Shown: positions 20,346-28,761 of the stretch, piece by piece
How the letters are laid out: each line of letters starts with the position of its first letter
Numbering within the stretch: position 1 is the stretch's first letter
Origin: Candidatus Gastranaerophilales bacterium
Lineage (GTDB): Bacteria > Cyanobacteriota > Vampirovibrionia > Gastranaerophilales > Gastranaerophilaceae
Direction of reading: 5' to 3'
NCBI GenBank assembly: GCA_944325095.1
Contig: CALUYV010000012.1
Location: 1-39,696, forward strand
Length of the DNA: 39,696 nucleotides
Made by a program: the position numbers and the translations under genes
Notes under the pieces: model-generated
Told to the model about the DNA's origin: nothing
Databases searched by the model: none
The model's input: the letters and a program-made list of their open reading frames with translations, nothing else

Positions 20346-21158
20346 ATGAAAGATTACGATTTTTATATAGTGCCGACACCGATTGGCAATTTGGAAGATA
20401 TAACATTAAGAGCGGTTGAAGTATTAAAATCGGTTGATATAATCGCCTGCGAAGACAGCAGAGTCACACAGAAATTATTAAATCATTACGATATAAAAAC
20501 AAAATGTATTTCATACCACAAATACAACGAAAAAGAACGGATAAACGAATTTTTATCAATCTTAAATTCAGGCAGAAAAATCGCACTGGTATCAGATGCC
20601 GGAACACCTTTAATATGTGATCCTGGCTCGATAATCGTAAATGAACTCAGAAAACACGGATACAGCCTGACCGCCCTTCCGGGAGCAAATGCTCTTGTTA
20701 CATTTCTTTCACAAATATCAAGGCAGGACGAAAGTTTTTCTTTTGCAGGCTTTTTACCAAAAACCGAACAGAAAATACAAGAAATTGCTCTGCAATACAA
20801 ATATCAAGATTTCGTTTTCTATGAATCACCGAACAGAATCATTAAAACCCTTGAATATATTAAAAAAGTCCGGCCAGATGCCAGAGTTGCTGCAGGGAGA
20901 GAATTGACAAAAATATTTGAAGAAATAGTAACAGGAACAATTGATGAAGTTATTTTACATTTAAAAACCAATATTACAAAAGGGGAGTTTGTCTGCTTAA
21001 TTTTCAGGGACAGCAAAAATGAAGAACTTTTCAACATGGATGACAAAATAAAACTGCTGCAAAATAAAGGTTTTAGCGCAAAAGATATTTCCGTAATCTT
21101 ATCCGAATTATACGAAGTTAACAAAAATAAAATTTATAACAGAACAGTTAATAAATAG
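20346..21158 (+). CDS. rsmI: 16S rRNA (cytidine1402-2'-O)-methyltransferase
   Basis: Methylates the ribose of C1402 in 16S rRNA near the P site, using SAM. The 270-residue product shows the tetrapyrrole-methylase fold signatures typical of RsmI: N-terminal YIVPTPIGNLEDITLRAVE, ACEDSRVTQKLLNHYDI, SDAGTPLICDPGS and LPGANALVTFLS, then FYESPNRI. The C terminus ends in a short basic helix. It has no clear Shine-Dalgarno and begins 21 nt after panE, with which it is probably co-transcribed. Confidence 0.95.
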   Translation: MKDYDFYIVPTPIGNLEDITLRAVEVLKSVDIIACEDSRVTQKLLNHYDIKTKCISYHKYNEKERINEFLSILNSGRKIALVSDAGTPLICDPGSIIVNELRKHGYSLTALPGANALVTFLSQISRQDESFSFAGFLPKTEQKIQEIALQYKYQDFVFYESPNRIIKTLEYIKKVRPDARVAAGRELTKIFEEIVTGTIDEVILHLKTNITKGEFVCLIFRDSKNEELFNMDDKIKLLQNKGFSAKDISVILSELYEVNKNKIYNRTVNK

Positions 21159-21169
21159 TTATAAAAAAA

Positions 21170-21198
21170 TTGTACTTTTTTTTAGTTTATGATAAAAT
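21170..21198 (+). promoter_or_regulatory. Possible promoter of the bamA operon
   Basis: TTGTAC (21170-21175), 17-base spacer, TAAAAT (21193-21198). It would give a leader of about 35 nt that includes the AAGGGA Shine-Dalgarno before the TTG start at 21240. Confidence 0.45.
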
Positions 21199-21239
21199 TT
21201 TAGTGGGCGTAGGGAGCTTTTATAATAAGGGAAAAGTTT

Positions 21240-23252
21240 TTGAATTTAAAGACAATGAAAAGATTAGTGTTAGCGTTAATGCTGACCGGAATAATTCAAA
21301 TATCAGGATATGCTGTAGATGATGTATGGGGAGGAATGGGTTTAACCGAAGAGGCCCTTCAAAAAGACAGCAACTACGCCAATACTATTTTTGACAAATA
21401 TACAAATTACTCCGAAACTCCTGCGCCAAAAGTAAATAACGGTAATTACCCTGCGGATTTAACGGACTCAAAAAATACGGTTTCAGCCTCGGATACCGAA
21501 AAAAGAACAATAAGTAATATTGAATTTTACGGTCTGAACTCCGTTTCAAAAGATGAACTGCTTAGCAAAATGCAGATGAAATCAGGAGAAACTTATTCCC
21601 GTGACATGCTTCAGTCTGACCTGAAAGCAATATATGAAACAGGCTTCTTTACGGAAAACATGAAAGCCATCCCTTCAAAAAACGATGACGGCACAGTTAC
21701 GGTTAAAATCGTTGTAGAAGAAAATCTGCCGGTTAAAGATTTCACAATTGAAGGTAATACAGTTGTTCCTGTTGAGGATATTCTTGCGATTCTTTCCGAT
21801 ATGAAAGGGAAACCGCAGAATATTACCCAGTTAAATGCAGCAATCGCCCAAATTCAGGAATTGTACAATTCAAAAGGATACATTCTTGCAAGAGTATCTT
21901 CCGTCAATGATGATCCTGACGGAACAATCAATATCACAATCAAGGAAGGTATCATCGACAAAATCATGATTGAAGGCAATGAAAAAACAAAAGATTACAT
22001 CATTGCACGTAATGTCATGACCGAGCCTGGCATGATTTACAACGAAAATCTCATAAAAGAAGACCTCGTAAGATTGTATGCAACCCAGGCATTTAAAGAT
22101 GTTACACGGGAAATTGAACCGAGTGAAGATGTGCCGGACGCGTACGACATTACAATAAAAATTCAGGAACAGAGAACTGCAAGTATTTCTGTCGGCGGCG
22201 GTATTGATACCGTAACAGGTTTATTCGGATCCATGGGTATTACTGAAAATAACTTCCGCGGCAGATGCGAAAGACTTTCATTAACAGGTTTGGTCGGTAC
22301 CGGTGTAATCCTTAACGATTCATCAGTTAAAGACCACATGAACATTCAGGCTGAATTAAGTTACTTCAAGCCGTACTTCTTAAATTCTGATACTTCATTA
22401 AACAGCAGATTATTCTTCAGAGATTTCGGTTCTTATCAGGTTCCGCTTGCAGTTGAAAGAAGATATGGCGCAGAAGCAACCGTATCTCACAGATTGAAAA
22501 AGAATAAACACGCATCTGCTTCTTTGAGTTTAGGATTGGAAAATATAGATGTTAGAGAAGGAGATGCCAACGGCATTAAGAATTTATATAACAAGTACAA
22601 TATTCCTATTGCCCGCCGTGCTGAACAGTTAGAAGGCGGATTATTCCTGTCTTTGAGTCCTGCAATTATCTATGATACAAGAGATTCGGCGACAGTAACA
22701 AGACACGGTACAATGGCAAGTTTGAGATTTGATGAAAACTTTGGCATGGACGGGTTTGACAAGACTAACGGAAAACTTACCGGTATGATTAAACAATATA
22801 TTCCTATCGGTAAAAAATCTTCGTTATCCTTCACTGCTAAAGGCGGAGGAACAATCCACGGCGATATACCTGAAGTTATGGCATATCGTTTAGGCGGCCC
22901 TTATACTATCAGAGGTTTCAAAATGAGCGGAGTCGGTACAGGTAACGCATTCATTATGGGTTCCGCCGAATTTGCAACTCCGATTCCATTTATGGACAGA
23001 ACAAGAATTGCATTCCTGAACAATATAAGATTCACAATTTGGGCTGATGCAGGTAAAGTATTTGACGGAACAATCTCTAACAAATTGTATGACCGTCCAA
23101 TGGAAGCGTTGTCTGTCGGTGTCGGTTTGAAAGTATTTGTTCCGGGCATGGGGCCTTTGTCAATCGATTACGGTATTCCGCTTACAAATCCGGGTGACAA
23201 CGGCTCAAGCAACGGCTACTTTACATTTGGTGTAGGTGATTTGTTATACTAG
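21240..23252 (+). CDS. bamA: Outer-membrane assembly protein, Omp85/BamA family
   Basis: Inserts beta-barrel proteins into the outer membrane. The 670-residue protein has a signal peptide (about 1-25), a spacer to residue 88, three POTRA domains (about 89-161, 163-236 and 238-311), and a C-terminal barrel from about 313. The conserved barrel lid motif is seen as GPYTIRGFKMSG, and the chain ends in FTFGVGDLLY, with an aromatic last residue as is usual for Omp85. Three POTRAs match cyanobacterial Omp85, against five in Proteobacteria. The start is a TTG with AAGGGA eight bases upstream; an ATG five codons later lacks a site. It heads an operon with ompH, udp and the FlhA-like gene. Confidence 0.93.
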   Translation: MNLKTMKRLVLALMLTGIIQISGYAVDDVWGGMGLTEEALQKDSNYANTIFDKYTNYSETPAPKVNNGNYPADLTDSKNTVSASDTEKRTISNIEFYGLNSVSKDELLSKMQMKSGETYSRDMLQSDLKAIYETGFFTENMKAIPSKNDDGTVTVKIVVEENLPVKDFTIEGNTVVPVEDILAILSDMKGKPQNITQLNAAIAQIQELYNSKGYILARVSSVNDDPDGTINITIKEGIIDKIMIEGNEKTKDYIIARNVMTEPGMIYNENLIKEDLVRLYATQAFKDVTREIEPSEDVPDAYDITIKIQEQRTASISVGGGIDTVTGLFGSMGITENNFRGRCERLSLTGLVGTGVILNDSSVKDHMNIQAELSYFKPYFLNSDTSLNSRLFFRDFGSYQVPLAVERRYGAEATVSHRLKKNKHASASLSLGLENIDVREGDANGIKNLYNKYNIPIARRAEQLEGGLFLSLSPAIIYDTRDSATVTRHGTMASLRFDENFGMDGFDKTNGKLTGMIKQYIPIGKKSSLSFTAKGGGTIHGDIPEVMAYRLGGPYTIRGFKMSGVGTGNAFIMGSAEFATPIPFMDRTRIAFLNNIRFTIWADAGKVFDGTISNKLYDRPMEALSVGVGLKVFVPGMGPLSIDYGIPLTNPGDNGSSNGYFTFGVGDLLY

Positions 23253-23278
23253 TAATAATAAATAATATAGGAGGATTT

Positions 23279-23725
23279 ATGAAAAGAAAACTTATGGCAT
23301 TTTTATTAGCCGCAGGCTTAACTTTCGGAACCGTATTACAGGCAAATGCTGAAATAGGTTACATCAATTACCAGAAAGTTTTAGAAAACTATCCTGCTGC
23401 TCAACAGGCTATTAAAGAAATTGATGCAAAAACTCTTGAAATTCAACAGTTTATGGTTGATAAAGAAAGACAATACAAATCTTTAGATACACCGTTGAAA
23501 AAACAAAACTTTGAAAATCAAACTGCAAATGAACTAAAAGCAAAACAAGAAGCTATTTACAAACTTCAAAACGAAAAGCAAAACCAGATATTAACTCAAA
23601 TTCAGAATGCAGCAAAAAATATAATGGTTACACAAAAACTTGATGCTGTTCTTTCTGACGAAGTTGTATTTGTCGGCGGAGTTGATATTACAGAACTCGT
23701 AATTCAAAACTTAAAGGGAATGTAA
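23279..23725 (+). CDS. OmpH/Skp-like periplasmic chaperone
   Basis: Periplasmic holding chaperone for unfolded outer-membrane proteins. The 148-residue protein has a textbook signal peptide ending VLQANA, the OmpH-type start of the mature chain EIGYINYQKVLENYPAAQQA, a long coiled coil (about 45-115), and a C-terminal strand pair (TQKLDAVLSDEVVFVGGVDIT) that completes the body. It lies 26 nt after bamA with a strong AGGAGG Shine-Dalgarno, and bamA-ompH pairing is widespread, which supports the call. Confidence 0.92.
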   Translation: MKRKLMAFLLAAGLTFGTVLQANAEIGYINYQKVLENYPAAQQAIKEIDAKTLEIQQFMVDKERQYKSLDTPLKKQNFENQTANELKAKQEAIYKLQNEKQNQILTQIQNAAKNIMVTQKLDAVLSDEVVFVGGVDITELVIQNLKGM

Positions 23726-23746
23726 TTTCAGCACGGGGAGCATTTT

Positions 23747-24505
23747 ATGAAATATTCGGAAAACGGTATTCAATACCACATAGGATTAAAAGAGGGAGAT
23801 GCCGGGGAATATGTAATATTGCCCGGAGATCCTAAACGATGCAAAAAAATTGCCGAATATTTGGATGATGCAAAATTGGTTGCAGACAGCAGAGAGTTTG
23901 TTACATATACAGGTCTGCTTGACGGAGAAAGAGTCAGCGTAACATCGACAGGCATCGGCGGGGCATCAGCGGCTATTGCGCTGGAAGAACTTGTTAATGT
24001 AGGTGCAAAAACATTTATTCGTGTCGGAACATGCGGGGGCATGCAGTTAGATATAAAAGGCGGAGATATTGTTATTGCAACCGGTGCGATTCGCATGGAA
24101 GGAACAAGCAGAGAATATGCTCCGATAGAGTTCCCTGCCGTCGCAAATCTTGAAGTTGTGAATGCTCTTACACAGGCTGCTCAAAAACTCGGCTATACCT
24201 ATCATACCGGTATAGTACAGTGCAAAGATTCTTTTTACGGACAGCATTCACCGGAAACAAAACCTGTAAACTATGAACTTTTAAACAAGTGGGAAGCCTG
24301 GAAAAAACTCGGCTGTCTGGCATCCGAAATGGAATCCGCAGCATTATTTATTGTTGCCAGTTATTTAAAAGTTAAAGTCGGTTCAGTATTTTTAACAGTA
24401 GGAAATCAGGAACGAGAAAAATTAAATATGGAAAATCCTATTGTACATGACACGGAAAAGGCAATTAAAACAGCCATAGAGGCAATCAGGATATTAAAAG
24501 GATAA
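23747..24505 (+). CDS. udp: Uridine phosphorylase
   Basis: Phosphorolysis of uridine to uracil and ribose-1-phosphate in pyrimidine salvage. The 252-residue product has the nucleoside-phosphorylase fold: phosphate site [13 protein letters not shown], the central [17 protein letters not shown] and RVGTCGGMQ, the base-binding [11 protein letters not shown] with Gln as in uracil-specific members, and [14 protein letters not shown] with the ribose-binding Met-Glu. Related purine phosphorylases (DeoD) differ in the base pocket. GGGGAG lies before the ATG. It sits 21 nt after ompH and 3 nt before the FlhA-like gene. Confidence 0.9.
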
Positions 24506-24508
24506 TTT

Positions 24509-25996
24509 ATGTTTAGAAAAAATAGAATGGAATATGTAATAAAATCATGCTCGGCAAGTGATGCGCAGGATTTGCAGAATCTGCTTAATGAAATGTCCAT
24601 GAACGGCTGGGATTTGTACAGTATGCATGATGTTGAGGATGACGACAACGGTTCTCAATTAAATTGTATATTTATGCGGGAAGCAAAATCCGAAAGTATC
24701 ACGGATTCCGATATAATTAATATTTCCGATTTCAAAAGCCAGATGGAAAAAATGCTTTCTCCGAAAATGAGTGAATACGAAAAATGTCTGGAATTGCAAT
24801 CAAAAATTCGCATTCAAAAAGAAAATATCCACAAAATTAAAGCAGAAATAGAAGGAGAAGCACCGGCTTCTGTTTCAAGAAAGAAACTTAATGATAAGAT
24901 TTCTGCCGGACTAAGAGAATTAGAAGATTTAAAAATTCAATTGAACAAAGCCACTTCACCGGATTTGATGTATTCAAAACTTCATGAAGAAAAATTAACA
25001 ATCTATTTAAGCGAGGAACTTCTCGGGTTAATTGATTCCGACCGTTCCGCTGCCGGGTATGAAGATGATTTGATTGCGGAAACAGTCAAATCAAGACTTC
25101 ATGTTACTGAAAAATACGGATATGTTATTCCAAAAGTTGTATTCAAAGATGATGAAAACTTAAATCCATGCGAATTCAGCATAAGAATCCGCGGAATGGA
25201 TGTTTTCACGGGCTGTGTAGTGCCTAATTCTCTGTTGTTCTATGCCGATGAACTCCACACAGAACATAAAATTAAAAATTCCGTCAATGCAATTGATGAA
25301 ATTACGGACAGAAAAGTTATCTGGATTGAAAAAGATAAAGCAAAAGATTTCTGGCAAAAAGGAATTTCCGTTTCCGAATATATTGCAAGAGCACTTGAAT
25401 ATGTCGCCGTGAAACATGTTGATGATTTGCTTGATTATGAGGATATAGATAAATATCTCGAAGTAGTCGAAAAAGAAAATGAATTTCTTATAGATAACAT
25501 TATTCCTGATTTGCTTACTTATTCAGACATTAAATATCTTTTAACAAGTTTAATAAAAGAAAAAGTTTCCATAAGAAATATCACATACATTTTTGAAAAA
25601 ATTAATGATTTTGCGGAAGAAGGCAGCAAAGCAGATATTCTGAATAAAATCCGGCTTTCTCTATCCAGACAGATATGCAAGCATTACGCAAATGAAGACG
25701 GAGAATCAATCAGTGCATTTGAACTTTCCGAAAAAACTTATTCGGATATAGTTCTTGGCTGTGATGAAAGTGATGATTGCCTGATTAAAATTGACGGAAC
25801 ACTTGCAGAAAAACTTGCAAATAAAATCCTCAGAAAAATGAAAAAACTTAAAATTCATAATCTGGTGCTGGTTGTTCCTATGGATTACAGGCAGATATTC
25901 TTCACACTGCTTTCCCTGTATATTAAAGATGTAACGGTTCTTGCAAATGAAGAACTCGGATGTATGTACAGAATAGAAAGCCTCGGAGAGGTTTAG
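24509..25996 (+). CDS. Soluble FlhA/SctV cytoplasmic-domain protein with extra N-domain
   Basis: A 495-residue protein whose C-terminal two thirds (about 163-495) reads as the cytoplasmic domain of the FHIPEP export-gate protein FlhA: LSEELLGLIDS; YGYVIPKVVFKDDENLNPCE then FSIRIRGMDVFTG; VIWI; VSEYIARALEYVAVKHVDDLL; NIIPDLLTYSDIKYLLTSLI; EKVSIRNITYIFEKIND; and LVLVVPMDYRQIFF near the end. The eight-helix membrane part of FlhA is absent. Residues 1-60 resemble a DUF4177-type domain (LLNEMSMNGWDLYSM), and 75-150 form a charged helical linker. AAGGAT precedes the ATG. It starts 3 nt after udp in the bamA operon. Its role without a membrane channel is unknown. Confidence 0.8.
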   Translation: MFRKNRMEYVIKSCSASDAQDLQNLLNEMSMNGWDLYSMHDVEDDDNGSQLNCIFMREAKSESITDSDIINISDFKSQMEKMLSPKMSEYEKCLELQSKIRIQKENIHKIKAEIEGEAPASVSRKKLNDKISAGLRELEDLKIQLNKATSPDLMYSKLHEEKLTIYLSEELLGLIDSDRSAAGYEDDLIAETVKSRLHVTEKYGYVIPKVVFKDDENLNPCEFSIRIRGMDVFTGCVVPNSLLFYADELHTEHKIKNSVNAIDEITDRKVIWIEKDKAKDFWQKGISVSEYIARALEYVAVKHVDDLLDYEDIDKYLEVVEKENEFLIDNIIPDLLTYSDIKYLLTSLIKEKVSIRNITYIFEKINDFAEEGSKADILNKIRLSLSRQICKHYANEDGESISAFELSEKTYSDIVLGCDESDDCLIKIDGTLAEKLANKILRKMKKLKIHNLVLVVPMDYRQIFFTLLSLYIKDVTVLANEELGCMYRIESLGEV

Positions 25997-26003
25997 CATA
26001 ATT

Positions 26004-27359
26004 TTATATTAAAATTTGGGTAGCAAGAATAAGTTTATGGCTGTCCGGTCTATTCTGGTTCTGGCAATAAACATAGTTCAGAATGACTCTGAGTGCCTGA
26101 CCTTTAATAAACCAGTTAATACCGGCGGTATATTCTCTTTGCAAATCATTAGATGCATCTCTGTTTGGATCAAACTGGTCAATTCTTCCTATAAGCTGCA
26201 AATGAGGATTGAATTTCCAGCCGACAGTTGCAGCATAACCGCATGCTTTATTTGCACTAAAACCGTATGAACCGTTATAACCATCTGCTATTGCGGCTTC
26301 GAAATTTGACCAGAGTTTTTTGTGGTGATAACCTATATAAACAGAACCGACCCCGTAATCAATATTGTTGTGGCCGCCGTTAAAACCTCCGCCGATAGTA
26401 ACTTTTCCGTATTTTTTTGCTTTATGCCCCAATGGCTTCAGGTTAACCCAGCCGTTAAATTCGGCACCGGGCATTCCGCTTGTTATGTATCTGCCCGAAC
26501 TGCCGACAGAAAAGTTATAGTCAATATACTGGTAATTTCCTGCAAGTTTTACGGCAAGAGATTTCGCATTCCCGAAATTTCTTGCAATCTGCGAACGGGC
26601 AACGAAAGGTAATATTTGTGTTGAAGTTCCGCCTTCCATACCTATTTGGATTCTGGTATAACCTGCAGTTATCTGATGATGCGGGATACTCGTATTCATT
26701 ATATATGCATTTGAAATAAACTGGTCAAAATACTCACCCGAGGATTGAACCGGATTAATAGAAAATTTAAATCTGTAATCCGGATTTTTCAAAGAACCAA
26801 TCACACCAATTTGTGTTGATAAGTTTTCATATTCGGTAGAATAGTTACTTTCATTAAAAATAGATCCTATAGAACCTCTGTAAACTCCGTATAATTGAAC
26901 TTTATTCACAGGACTGCCTTCTTTAAATTTAAAAGTCAAATCATCCTTAAATAAATAAGAAGGTACATCCGTTCTGACAATTTTACTATGCAGGACTTTG
27001 CCGATAACAGTATCTTCATCAATAACATTATCATTATCTTTATCAAACATTCTGAAAAACTCAAACTCTAACTCGTTATTGTTCATAACCTCATTATCAT
27101 CGTTCAGAATATTATTATCCGTTTGAACAGGCTTAGTTTCAACAAATTTTGTTTCAATAACTTTTGTTTCAACAGATTTTGCTGCCGGACTGTTTTCGCC
27201 GGCAAAAAGTGTATTACTCCTTGGCTGTAATGTAATCTCATCTGCTTGCGGGGTATTCAGCAGTTCTTTATCGTAACCGTCCAAAACCTCGGAGTATGCG
27301 GTACCGGAAAGTAATCCGATGAATATAAAAATTGATATTATTTTTATAAAACATTTCAT
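26004..27359 (-). CDS. Porin-like outer-membrane beta-barrel protein
   Basis: A 451-residue protein with a signal peptide (about 1-23, ending GTAYS), a Glu/Asn-rich linker with three near-repeats of VETKVIETK type (about 65-80), an acidic DKDNDNVIDEDT segment that resembles a calcium-binding loop, and then a long beta-rich region of alternating aromatic and polar strands (VQLYGVYRGSIGS to YVYCQNQNR) ending in ILATQILI. The layout suits a phosphate-selective OprO/P-like or related porin; the solute is unknown. The ATG at 27359 fits the signal peptide; TACAAT ends eight bases before it and no Shine-Dalgarno is seen. It converges on the FlhA-like gene with 7 nt between the stops. Confidence 0.72.
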   Translation of the reverse strand: MKCFIKIISIFIFIGLLSGTAYSEVLDGYDKELLNTPQADEITLQPRSNTLFAGENSPAAKSVETKVIETKFVETKPVQTDNNILNDDNEVMNNNELEFEFFRMFDKDNDNVIDEDTVIGKVLHSKIVRTDVPSYLFKDDLTFKFKEGSPVNKVQLYGVYRGSIGSIFNESNYSTEYENLSTQIGVIGSLKNPDYRFKFSINPVQSSGEYFDQFISNAYIMNTSIPHHQITAGYTRIQIGMEGGTSTQILPFVARSQIARNFGNAKSLAVKLAGNYQYIDYNFSVGSSGRYITSGMPGAEFNGWVNLKPLGHKAKKYGKVTIGGGFNGGHNNIDYGVGSVYIGYHHKKLWSNFEAAIADGYNGSYGFSANKACGYAATVGWKFNPHLQLIGRIDQFDPNRDASNDLQREYTAGINWFIKGQALRVILNYVYCQNQNRPDSHKLILATQILI

Positions 27360-27414
27360 CTTAGCAAATTGTATCACAAATTTTGGAGAAAGTATGCCCT
27401 TATTTTATACACAA

Positions 27415-28761
27415 TTAAATATCAACACCCTGCATCATTTGAATCAACTGATTAATTGTACCTTCCATTGTAACACTTTCATCAGTTCGCTGCTGCAGGA
27501 ATGCATTTATTTTCGGCATCATCTCTATTGCAGTATCGAGTTTCGGATTTGAGCCGGGCTGATACATACCAACATCAATCAAATCTTTATTTTCTCTGTA
27601 TAATGACATAATCGCACGCAGTTTGCCGGCAGCCTTTTTATGTTCCGGAGTAGCAATTGCACTCATCAAACGGGAAATACTGCCAAGAACATCAATTGCC
27701 GGATAGTGGTTTGATTCGGCAACTTTTCTCGACAGGAAAATGTGACCGTCAACAATACCACGCACAATATCAACAATAGGGTCGGAAATATCATCCCCTT
27801 CCATCAAGACCGTGTAAAGAGCCGTAATTGAACCCTTCGGACTGTTTCCCGCTCTTTCAAGAACCTTTTGAAGCCAGGAAAATATAGAAGGAGGGTAACC
27901 TTTCATTGTAGGAGGCTCCCCGAGTGACAAACCGACTTCACGGCCGGCCATGGCACAACGAGTAACAGTATCAGTCATAAGGAAAACTTTTTTCCCCTGA
28001 TCTCTAAAATACTCACAAACAGCAGTTGCGGTAAGCAGAGCCTTTTGTCTGATTAATGGAGGCTGGTCGCCCGTTGAGCAAACAAGGACAGATTTTGACA
28101 TCCCGTATTCCCCGAGAGAATCTTCAACAAATTCTTTAACTTCACGGCCTCGTTCGCCGATTAGTGCAACTACGTTAACATCAGCATCCGAATTTCTTGC
28201 AATCATACCGAGCAGTGTACTTTTACCGACACCGGAACCCGCAAACAGCCCTAAACGCTGGCCGCAGCCCATTGTCATACACCCGTCTATTGCTCTTACA
28301 CCTGTTGAAAACTGTTCGGTGATAATCGGTCTTTCAAAAGGCCCCGGCGGCGGACCTTCAATTTCTTTCCAGAGAGCATTTGTTGTATCAAGAGGTTTTC
28401 CGTCAATAGGATTACCCAAAGGGTCAATAAGCCGTCCGAGCAAAAAATCTCCTACAGGAATTGTAATCGGCCGTCTGGTTGTGGTAACAAGACTTCCCTG
28501 ACCTATTCCGTTTCCGTCAAGCAGCAAAGATAGTTGAGCAACTTCCCCTTTAAATGCCTGAACTTCAGCCGGTTTTAATTCACCTGCATAATTTTCTATA
28601 TAGCATAAATCACCAACTTTTAACCCCGGAAGTTTTACTTCAACAGTTAAACCCAAAAGTTTTGAAACAGCACCCTTAAAGGTGTATAACTCCGTATTAG
28701 CAAGTTTTTCCCTTACATTGCTTTTAATTAATTCAAGACTTTCTTTGTTAAAATCGTCCAT
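27415..28761 (-). CDS. FliI/SctN-type export ATPase
   Basis: A 448-residue ATPase of the flagellar FliI / type III secretion SctN family, which powers protein export and is related to F1-beta. Seen: an N-terminal beta-barrel with GRLIDPLGNPIDG (109-121); Walker A GLFAGSGVGKST (171-182); catalytic Glu in GERGREV (202-208); Walker B-like VFLMTDTVTRCA (259-270); and the diagnostic GEPPTMKGYPPSIFSWLQKV (281-300) followed by LERAG, plus DGHIFLSR. Everything needed for catalysis is present. No fliH, fliJ or other flagellar gene is adjacent. The start has no Shine-Dalgarno; a near-consensus promoter ends six bases before the ATG. Confidence 0.92.
   Translation of the reverse strand: MDDFNKESLELIKSNVREKLANTELYTFKGAVSKLLGLTVEVKLPGLKVGDLCYIENYAGELKPAEVQAFKGEVAQLSLLLDGNGIGQGSLVTTTRRPITIPVGDFLLGRLIDPLGNPIDGKPLDTTNALWKEIEGPPPGPFERPIITEQFSTGVRAIDGCMTMGCGQRLGLFAGSGVGKSTLLGMIARNSDADVNVVALIGERGREVKEFVEDSLGEYGMSKSVLVCSTGDQPPLIRQKALLTATAVCEYFRDQGKKVFLMTDTVTRCAMAGREVGLSLGEPPTMKGYPPSIFSWLQKVLERAGNSPKGSITALYTVLMEGDDISDPIVDIVRGIVDGHIFLSRKVAESNHYPAIDVLGSISRLMSAIATPEHKKAAGKLRAIMSLYRENKDLIDVGMYQPGSNPKLDTAIEMMPKINAFLQQRTDESVTMEGTINQLIQMMQGVDI

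Follow-up and report, generated by a model that had tools for sequence, protein, structure and literature searches.

A channel-less protein derived from the FlhA of a second flagellar-type export system in Gastranaerophilales

Introduction

In FlhA, a membrane protein, cargo is received by a ring that the C-domains form. In solved homologues the ring contacts are made by subdomains D1 and D3 and by the linker (PMC8635156, PMC8166844). The chaperone-binding dimple of FlhA includes D456, F459 and T490 (PMC10965912), GYXLI is the conserved switch motif of its C-domain (PMC9431611), and in CdsV the ATPase stalk docks at D4 (PMC7584215). Residues are numbered here as in E. coli FlhA and are those described for Salmonella (PMC10965912, PMC9431611, PMC8166844).

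The cytosolic domain of another gate protein is known to be encoded apart from its membrane part, beside the full protein. HP1575 (FlhX) of Helicobacter pylori is a free FlhB C-domain, for which replacement in trans is reported, to judge by the title of a paper cited in PMC3040844. Free FlhA C-domain proteins were not found in the literature searched.

The Gastranaerophilales are gut bacteria and non-photosynthetic relatives of the cyanobacteria. Partial or incomplete flagellar gene sets have been described in them (PMC4040986, PMC5877343). The window, that is, the whole stretch of 39,696 nucleotides that was analysed, is one contig (C12) of a 1.79 Mb draft genome of this order (G000), whose close matches among named records belong to Candidatus Gastranaerophilales / Melainabacteria. 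It encodes a protein, called SHORT below, that has in common with FlhA (FHIPEP, PF00771) the linker and the full four-subdomain C-part, as judged by sequence and predicted fold. Unlike FlhA, it has no transmembrane channel, carries a new N-terminal domain and a helical region, is changed at the GYXLI glycine, the dimple and D4, and is encoded outside a flagellar operon (Table 1).

Table 1. Features of SHORT, its surroundings in the window and further FlhA2 derivatives at other loci
Feature	Position	Strand	Remarks
rsmI-bamA-ompH-udp	20346..24505	+	co-directional upstream genes; context
SHORT, channel-less FlhA2-derived protein	24509..25996	+	495 aa
N-terminal beta-alpha-beta-beta domain, tentatively DUF4177-like (residues 5-60)	24521..24688	+	GWELY signature; model pLDDT ~81
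Helical region, probably coiled-coil (72-148)	24722..24952	+	DSSP helices 72-83, 89-115, 124-148
FlhA-linker C-terminal segment (149-161)	24953..24991	+	P151 invariant
D1, first part (162-239)	24992..25225	+	GYXLI switch glycine replaced by Ser168
D2 (240-287)	25226..25369	+	dimple F459/L461 replaced by T266/R268
D1, second part (288-307)	25370..25429	+	dimple T490 replaced by R294
D3 (308-386)	25430..25666	+	best-conserved part of C-domain; ring core in solved homologues (PMC8635156)
D4 (387-495)	25667..25993	+	strong divergence
FliI2, ATPase of second export system	27415..28761	-	TIGR01026, 549 bits
Mini FlhA2 derivatives	L210:9227-10084; L209:9146-10036; L211:9286-10143; L213:8972-9979		285-335 aa
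Channel-swapped FlhA2 derivatives	L215:8222-10306; L214:7164-9023; L212:9042-10823		694, 619 and 593 aa, respectively

Domain organization of SHORT

The SHORT reading frame starts with ATG, has no internal stops and is intact. A FlhA C-domain had been proposed in the first-pass annotation, and this is borne out: it occupies residues ~146-495, and PF00771 matches residues 146-483 over positions 316-652 of its 657 (E 1.1e-46, 160 bits; cut-off 29), while profile positions 1-315, the membrane domain, are unmatched. Searched against the PDB with phmmer, SHORT finds FlhA-C of B. subtilis (E 5e-22). A structure was predicted from an alignment of 39 relatives, with a mean pLDDT of 76.8; in this model residues ~141-495 superpose on solved FlhA/SctV C-domains, the best being 7amy (Z 28.4, 339 residues, rmsd 4.0). 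The injectisome C-domains of SctV, InvA and CdsV have the same fold (Z about 21-28), but the sequence scores favour FlhA. In NCBIfam (TIGR01398 and TIGR01399) the FlhA model gives 148.8 bits against a full-length equivalog cut-off of 772.1, and the SctV model 92.6 bits against 692.3; assignment as an injectisome SctV was rejected on this lower score.

The absence of a membrane segment likewise holds. The highest 19-residue Kyte-Doolittle mean is 1.46, compared with about 3.1 in full FlhA, and no hydrophobic segment is present in any of 21 proteins (SHORT and 20 diverse relatives). The product is cytosolic.

Of the DUF4177-like domain and helix that had been placed in front of the C-domain, the beta-alpha-beta-beta topology (residues 7-58) and the helices are visible in the model, whereas the DUF4177 match is weak and carried by relatives. 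With the PF13783 profile, SHORT of the window misses E 1, which is reached by 29 of 39 near relatives (best 0.0067) and by 11 of 19 diverse ones (best 3.2e-4), so that the label is fair but weak and, taken from sequence, tentative. Searched alone, this domain has zero Foldseek matches at E 0.001 or better; its best VIA-align Z, 6.5 to the C-domain of KCTD5, is uninformative for a beta-alpha-beta-beta domain of 63 residues. It is as conserved as the C-domain, with 51% mean identity within the SHORT clade. The end of the helical region aligns with the FlhA2 linker (xxLxELExLKxxLxxxxSPxxMY). In the linker segment that follows (residues 149-161), P151 does not vary among SHORT proteins and M154 hardly does, a pattern shared with FlhA2 (NPxxMYE).

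Descent from FlhA2

In a C-domain tree, 21 SHORT proteins form one clade (100/100), joined (100/100) to FlhA2, the FlhA of the second export system described below, which is present in this order and in further orders of its class. An origin from the flagellar FlhA1 was rejected by this tree, which has long branches, and by an AU test, which is limited by its model (p 6e-5). SHORT and FlhA2 have a 3-residue deletion in D2 in common, and their linker motifs are alike (SPxxMYS and NPxxMYE, respectively); both point the same way as the tree and are consistent with descent from FlhA2. FlhA2 is thus the closest homologue of SHORT. It differs in being a full membrane protein encoded in a fliE-fliF-x-fliH-flhA(-fliI) operon, whereas SHORT is soluble, unlinked and evolving much faster.

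Further FlhA2 derivatives lie outside the SHORT clade. Four genomes (G018, G035, G044, G071) encode minis of ~285-335 aa that consist of linker, D1 and D3 and lack D2 and D4; that of G071 (L213) has, by eye, two apparent membrane helices. Three others (G057, G005, G219) encode proteins of 593-694 aa in which an FlhA2-type C-domain is joined to other, unrelated N-terminal parts with a few hydrophobic helices, and the smallest of these, at L212, is without D2. A decayed channel-less derivative is present in G033. Such proteins suggest that linker, D1 and D3 have been put to new use as a unit on more than one occasion. Together with SHORT they provide a natural dissection of the receptor ring into parts that are needed (linker, D1, D3) and parts that can change (D2, D4, dimple).

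A second export system

Flagellin-bearing members of the order mostly have two each of FliF, FliP and FlhA. In the genus of the window the divergent export set is the only one, and flagellin was not found there except for one match in G014, a genome with 6% contamination. The first pass had raised the question of whether genomes with relatives of SHORT lack flhB, fliP, fliQ and fliR. They do not: in the genome of the window itself the second system comprises FliE-FliF-x-FliH-FlhA2, FliN-like-FliO-FliP-FliQ-FliR, FlhB, FliI (in the window) and a FlgC-sized rod gene. Its full-length FlhA is encoded away from the window, split over contigs C93 and C15. Neither Pfam nor NCBIfam gives a match for protein x, which is encoded between FliF and FliH. 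The corresponding operon of G064 has additional rod genes and a transglycosylase, with flhA2-fliI2 at its end (loci L115, L114, L163 and L151 in these two genomes). Hook-sized Flg proteins are absent among the matches listed for the genus of the window.

This little-studied second system, rod-bearing and of flagellar type, is complete (FlhA, FlhB, FliO-R, FliE-I) in a genus without flagellin, where it has been kept although flagella were lost, and the partner of SHORT in that genus cannot be a flagellum. In our reading, the incomplete flagellar gene sets of earlier papers form this separate system, to which SHORT draws attention in gut bacteria that lack flagellin. In G006 a gene for an 856-aa protein with RTX calcium-binding repeats (L165:3298-5868) lies directly upstream of fliE2; its product is a conceivable secreted substrate.

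Distribution and selection

A profile of 19 diverse relatives (A3) was searched against 382 genomes of the class. It matched 328, of which 286 belong to the order and 42 to other orders; 54 had no match. A match of SHORT type (best E below 1e-120) was found in 283 of the 286 genomes of the order with any FlhA match, the remaining three (G047, G048, G343) having full FlhA only. The 42 genomes outside the order likewise have FlhA only, with best E values from 1e-47 to 1e-80. When 292 genomes from the phylum were scanned, SHORT turned up in the order only, and it was not present in those of the 382 class genomes that lack FlhA.

FlhA2 occurs without SHORT in four genomes (the three above and G078), and SHORT without a found FlhA2 in another four (G035, G256, G339, G355). 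Gaps in draft assemblies may explain these mismatches. FliP and FlhB are present in G035, which makes an assembly gap there as likely as loss of FlhA2.

Between close species pN of SHORT is about 0.06 compared with a pS of about 0.7, which is saturated; this indicates strong purifying selection.

Conserved and altered surfaces

The glycine of GYXLI (G368) is Ser in 20 of 21 SHORT proteins and Thr in the other. In the dimple, D456 is retained in 19 of 21, F459 and T490 in none, and the hydrophobic residue at position 461 is almost always gone. Mean identities between SHORT and FlhA2, compared with those between FlhA1 and FlhA2, are 25 vs. 12% in the linker, 35 and 31 vs. 36 and 33% in the two parts of D1, 17 vs. 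19% in D2, 35 vs. 34% in D3, and 19 vs. 35% in D4. Divergence is fast, mean identity being 41% within the SHORT clade and roughly 50-88% per domain in FlhA2. From this pattern the parts that make ring contacts (D3, D1 and linker) have been kept, and D4 and the dimple have changed. Conservation of D1, D3 and linker at the level of sequence suggests that SHORT could form nonameric rings, and we infer that it would form or join rings.

A possible role in the second export system

It may be proposed that SHORT goes back to a duplication of flhA2, no later than the ancestor of the order. One copy would then have lost the eight-helix channel, with a small domain of DUF4177-like type and a stretch of helices in its place, and retained the linker and four-domain C-part. 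Through linker, D1 and D3, SHORT would contact FlhA2, or other copies of itself, as subunits of an export-gate ring do; a different cargo, chaperone or ATPase stalk might be engaged through the new N-terminal part and the changed dimple, D4 and switch motif. SHORT would on this account assist the second system from the cytosol, as an accessory adaptor or regulator, possibly acting on the FlhA2 ring. This is the best supported of the proposals, and we hold its chances to be evenly balanced. It is favoured by the descent from FlhA2, by the retention of linker, D1 and D3, the very parts kept in the minis, by the completeness of the second system where flagellin is missing, and by the absence of SHORT from class genomes that lack FlhA. 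Against it stand the eight genomes in which SHORT or FlhA2 is unpaired, and the lack of gene linkage: in the lineages examined closely SHORT is not linked to second-system genes, the nearest case being G064, about 15 kb away. Co-occurrence with FlhA2 has little power, as both are near-universal in the order.

In a more specific form, about which we are doubtful, SHORT would co-assemble with the FlhA2 ring through linker, D1 and D3, or stack a second ring on it, so that a soluble, exchangeable subunit would make up part of the receptor face of the gate. If so, a type III apparatus would choose its cargo through the exchange of gate subunits in the cytosol, and the minis and channel-swapped derivatives would be more such interchangeable subunits.

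The main rival to an adaptor is full repurposing, in which SHORT would self-assemble into a cytosolic ring or scaffold of its own and serve a function that has no connection with type III export, the fold alone being inherited. Its separation from export genes, its fast divergence, and the loss of the dimple (F459, L461, T490), the GYXLI glycine and D4 would all fit such an independent scaffold. Linker motif, D1 and D3 are, however, constrained as in FlhA2, and SHORT is confined to an order whose members almost always have FlhA2; we consider this alternative a serious one, but on the unlikely side.

Of the first-pass reading, the part that is supported is that SHORT is a soluble paralogue of the FlhA C-domain and that an export gate was repurposed to give it; the connection then drawn to the outer membrane is not supported.

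By analogy with HP1575, SHORT might instead be a spare part, a redundant C-domain that replaces that of FlhA2 in trans. The change is of the same kind, a cytosolic gate domain freed from its channel, and the HP1575 report, by its title as cited in PMC3040844, offers a precedent. HP1575 concerns a different gate protein, and SHORT differs further in its added N-terminal domains and in functional surfaces that have changed. A simple substitute would hardly be expected to have lost G368 and T490 in every member, to have diverged in D4, and to carry an added N-terminal domain as conserved as the rest, and we judge this improbable.

Gene neighbourhood

The gene begins 3 nt after udp, as first described. 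Among 80 loci gathered with the window protein itself as query, and for that reason biased to near relatives, rsmI-bamA-ompH-udp lies 5' of SHORT almost wherever the flank reaches, and this gene arrangement is conserved across the core of one family (f1). This is what speaks for an outer-membrane assembly factor acting with BamA and OmpH, the connection suggested at first. The linkage is not general. Of 20 loci picked to represent other genera and families, five have the bamA arrangement (G046, with a different gene at the udp position, G051, G054, G057 and G058), and the remaining 15 have no common neighbour of SHORT. Clustering of the neighbours of 21 loci gave no conserved partner gene adjoining SHORT outside the f1 core. 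Being confined to part of one family, the linkage is a lineage trait and no evidence of function. SHORT is moreover cytosolic and without a membrane segment, and with gene contexts compared across seven families a BAM function is unsupported and very improbable.

An assembly error, a frameshift or a decaying flhA fragment might be imagined, FlhA2 of this draft genome being itself split between contigs, but an artefact is refuted by recurrence of the same channel-less frame in the 283 genomes, by the low pN relative to pS and by the conserved extra N-domain, and its probability is negligible; the gene upstream encodes uridine phosphorylase, which excludes a frameshifted neighbouring channel frame.

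The nearby FliI-like ATPase, with which SHORT was first thought perhaps to work, is that of the second system: in L151-L153 flhA2 is followed by a fliI with 76-79% identity to it. A shared system is thus plausible, although within the flank examined FliI2 is near SHORT in only seven of the 80 loci. In the genus of the window the FliI2 gene stands apart from the flhA2 operon. A porin-like gene (26004-27377) sits between SHORT and FliI2 in the window.
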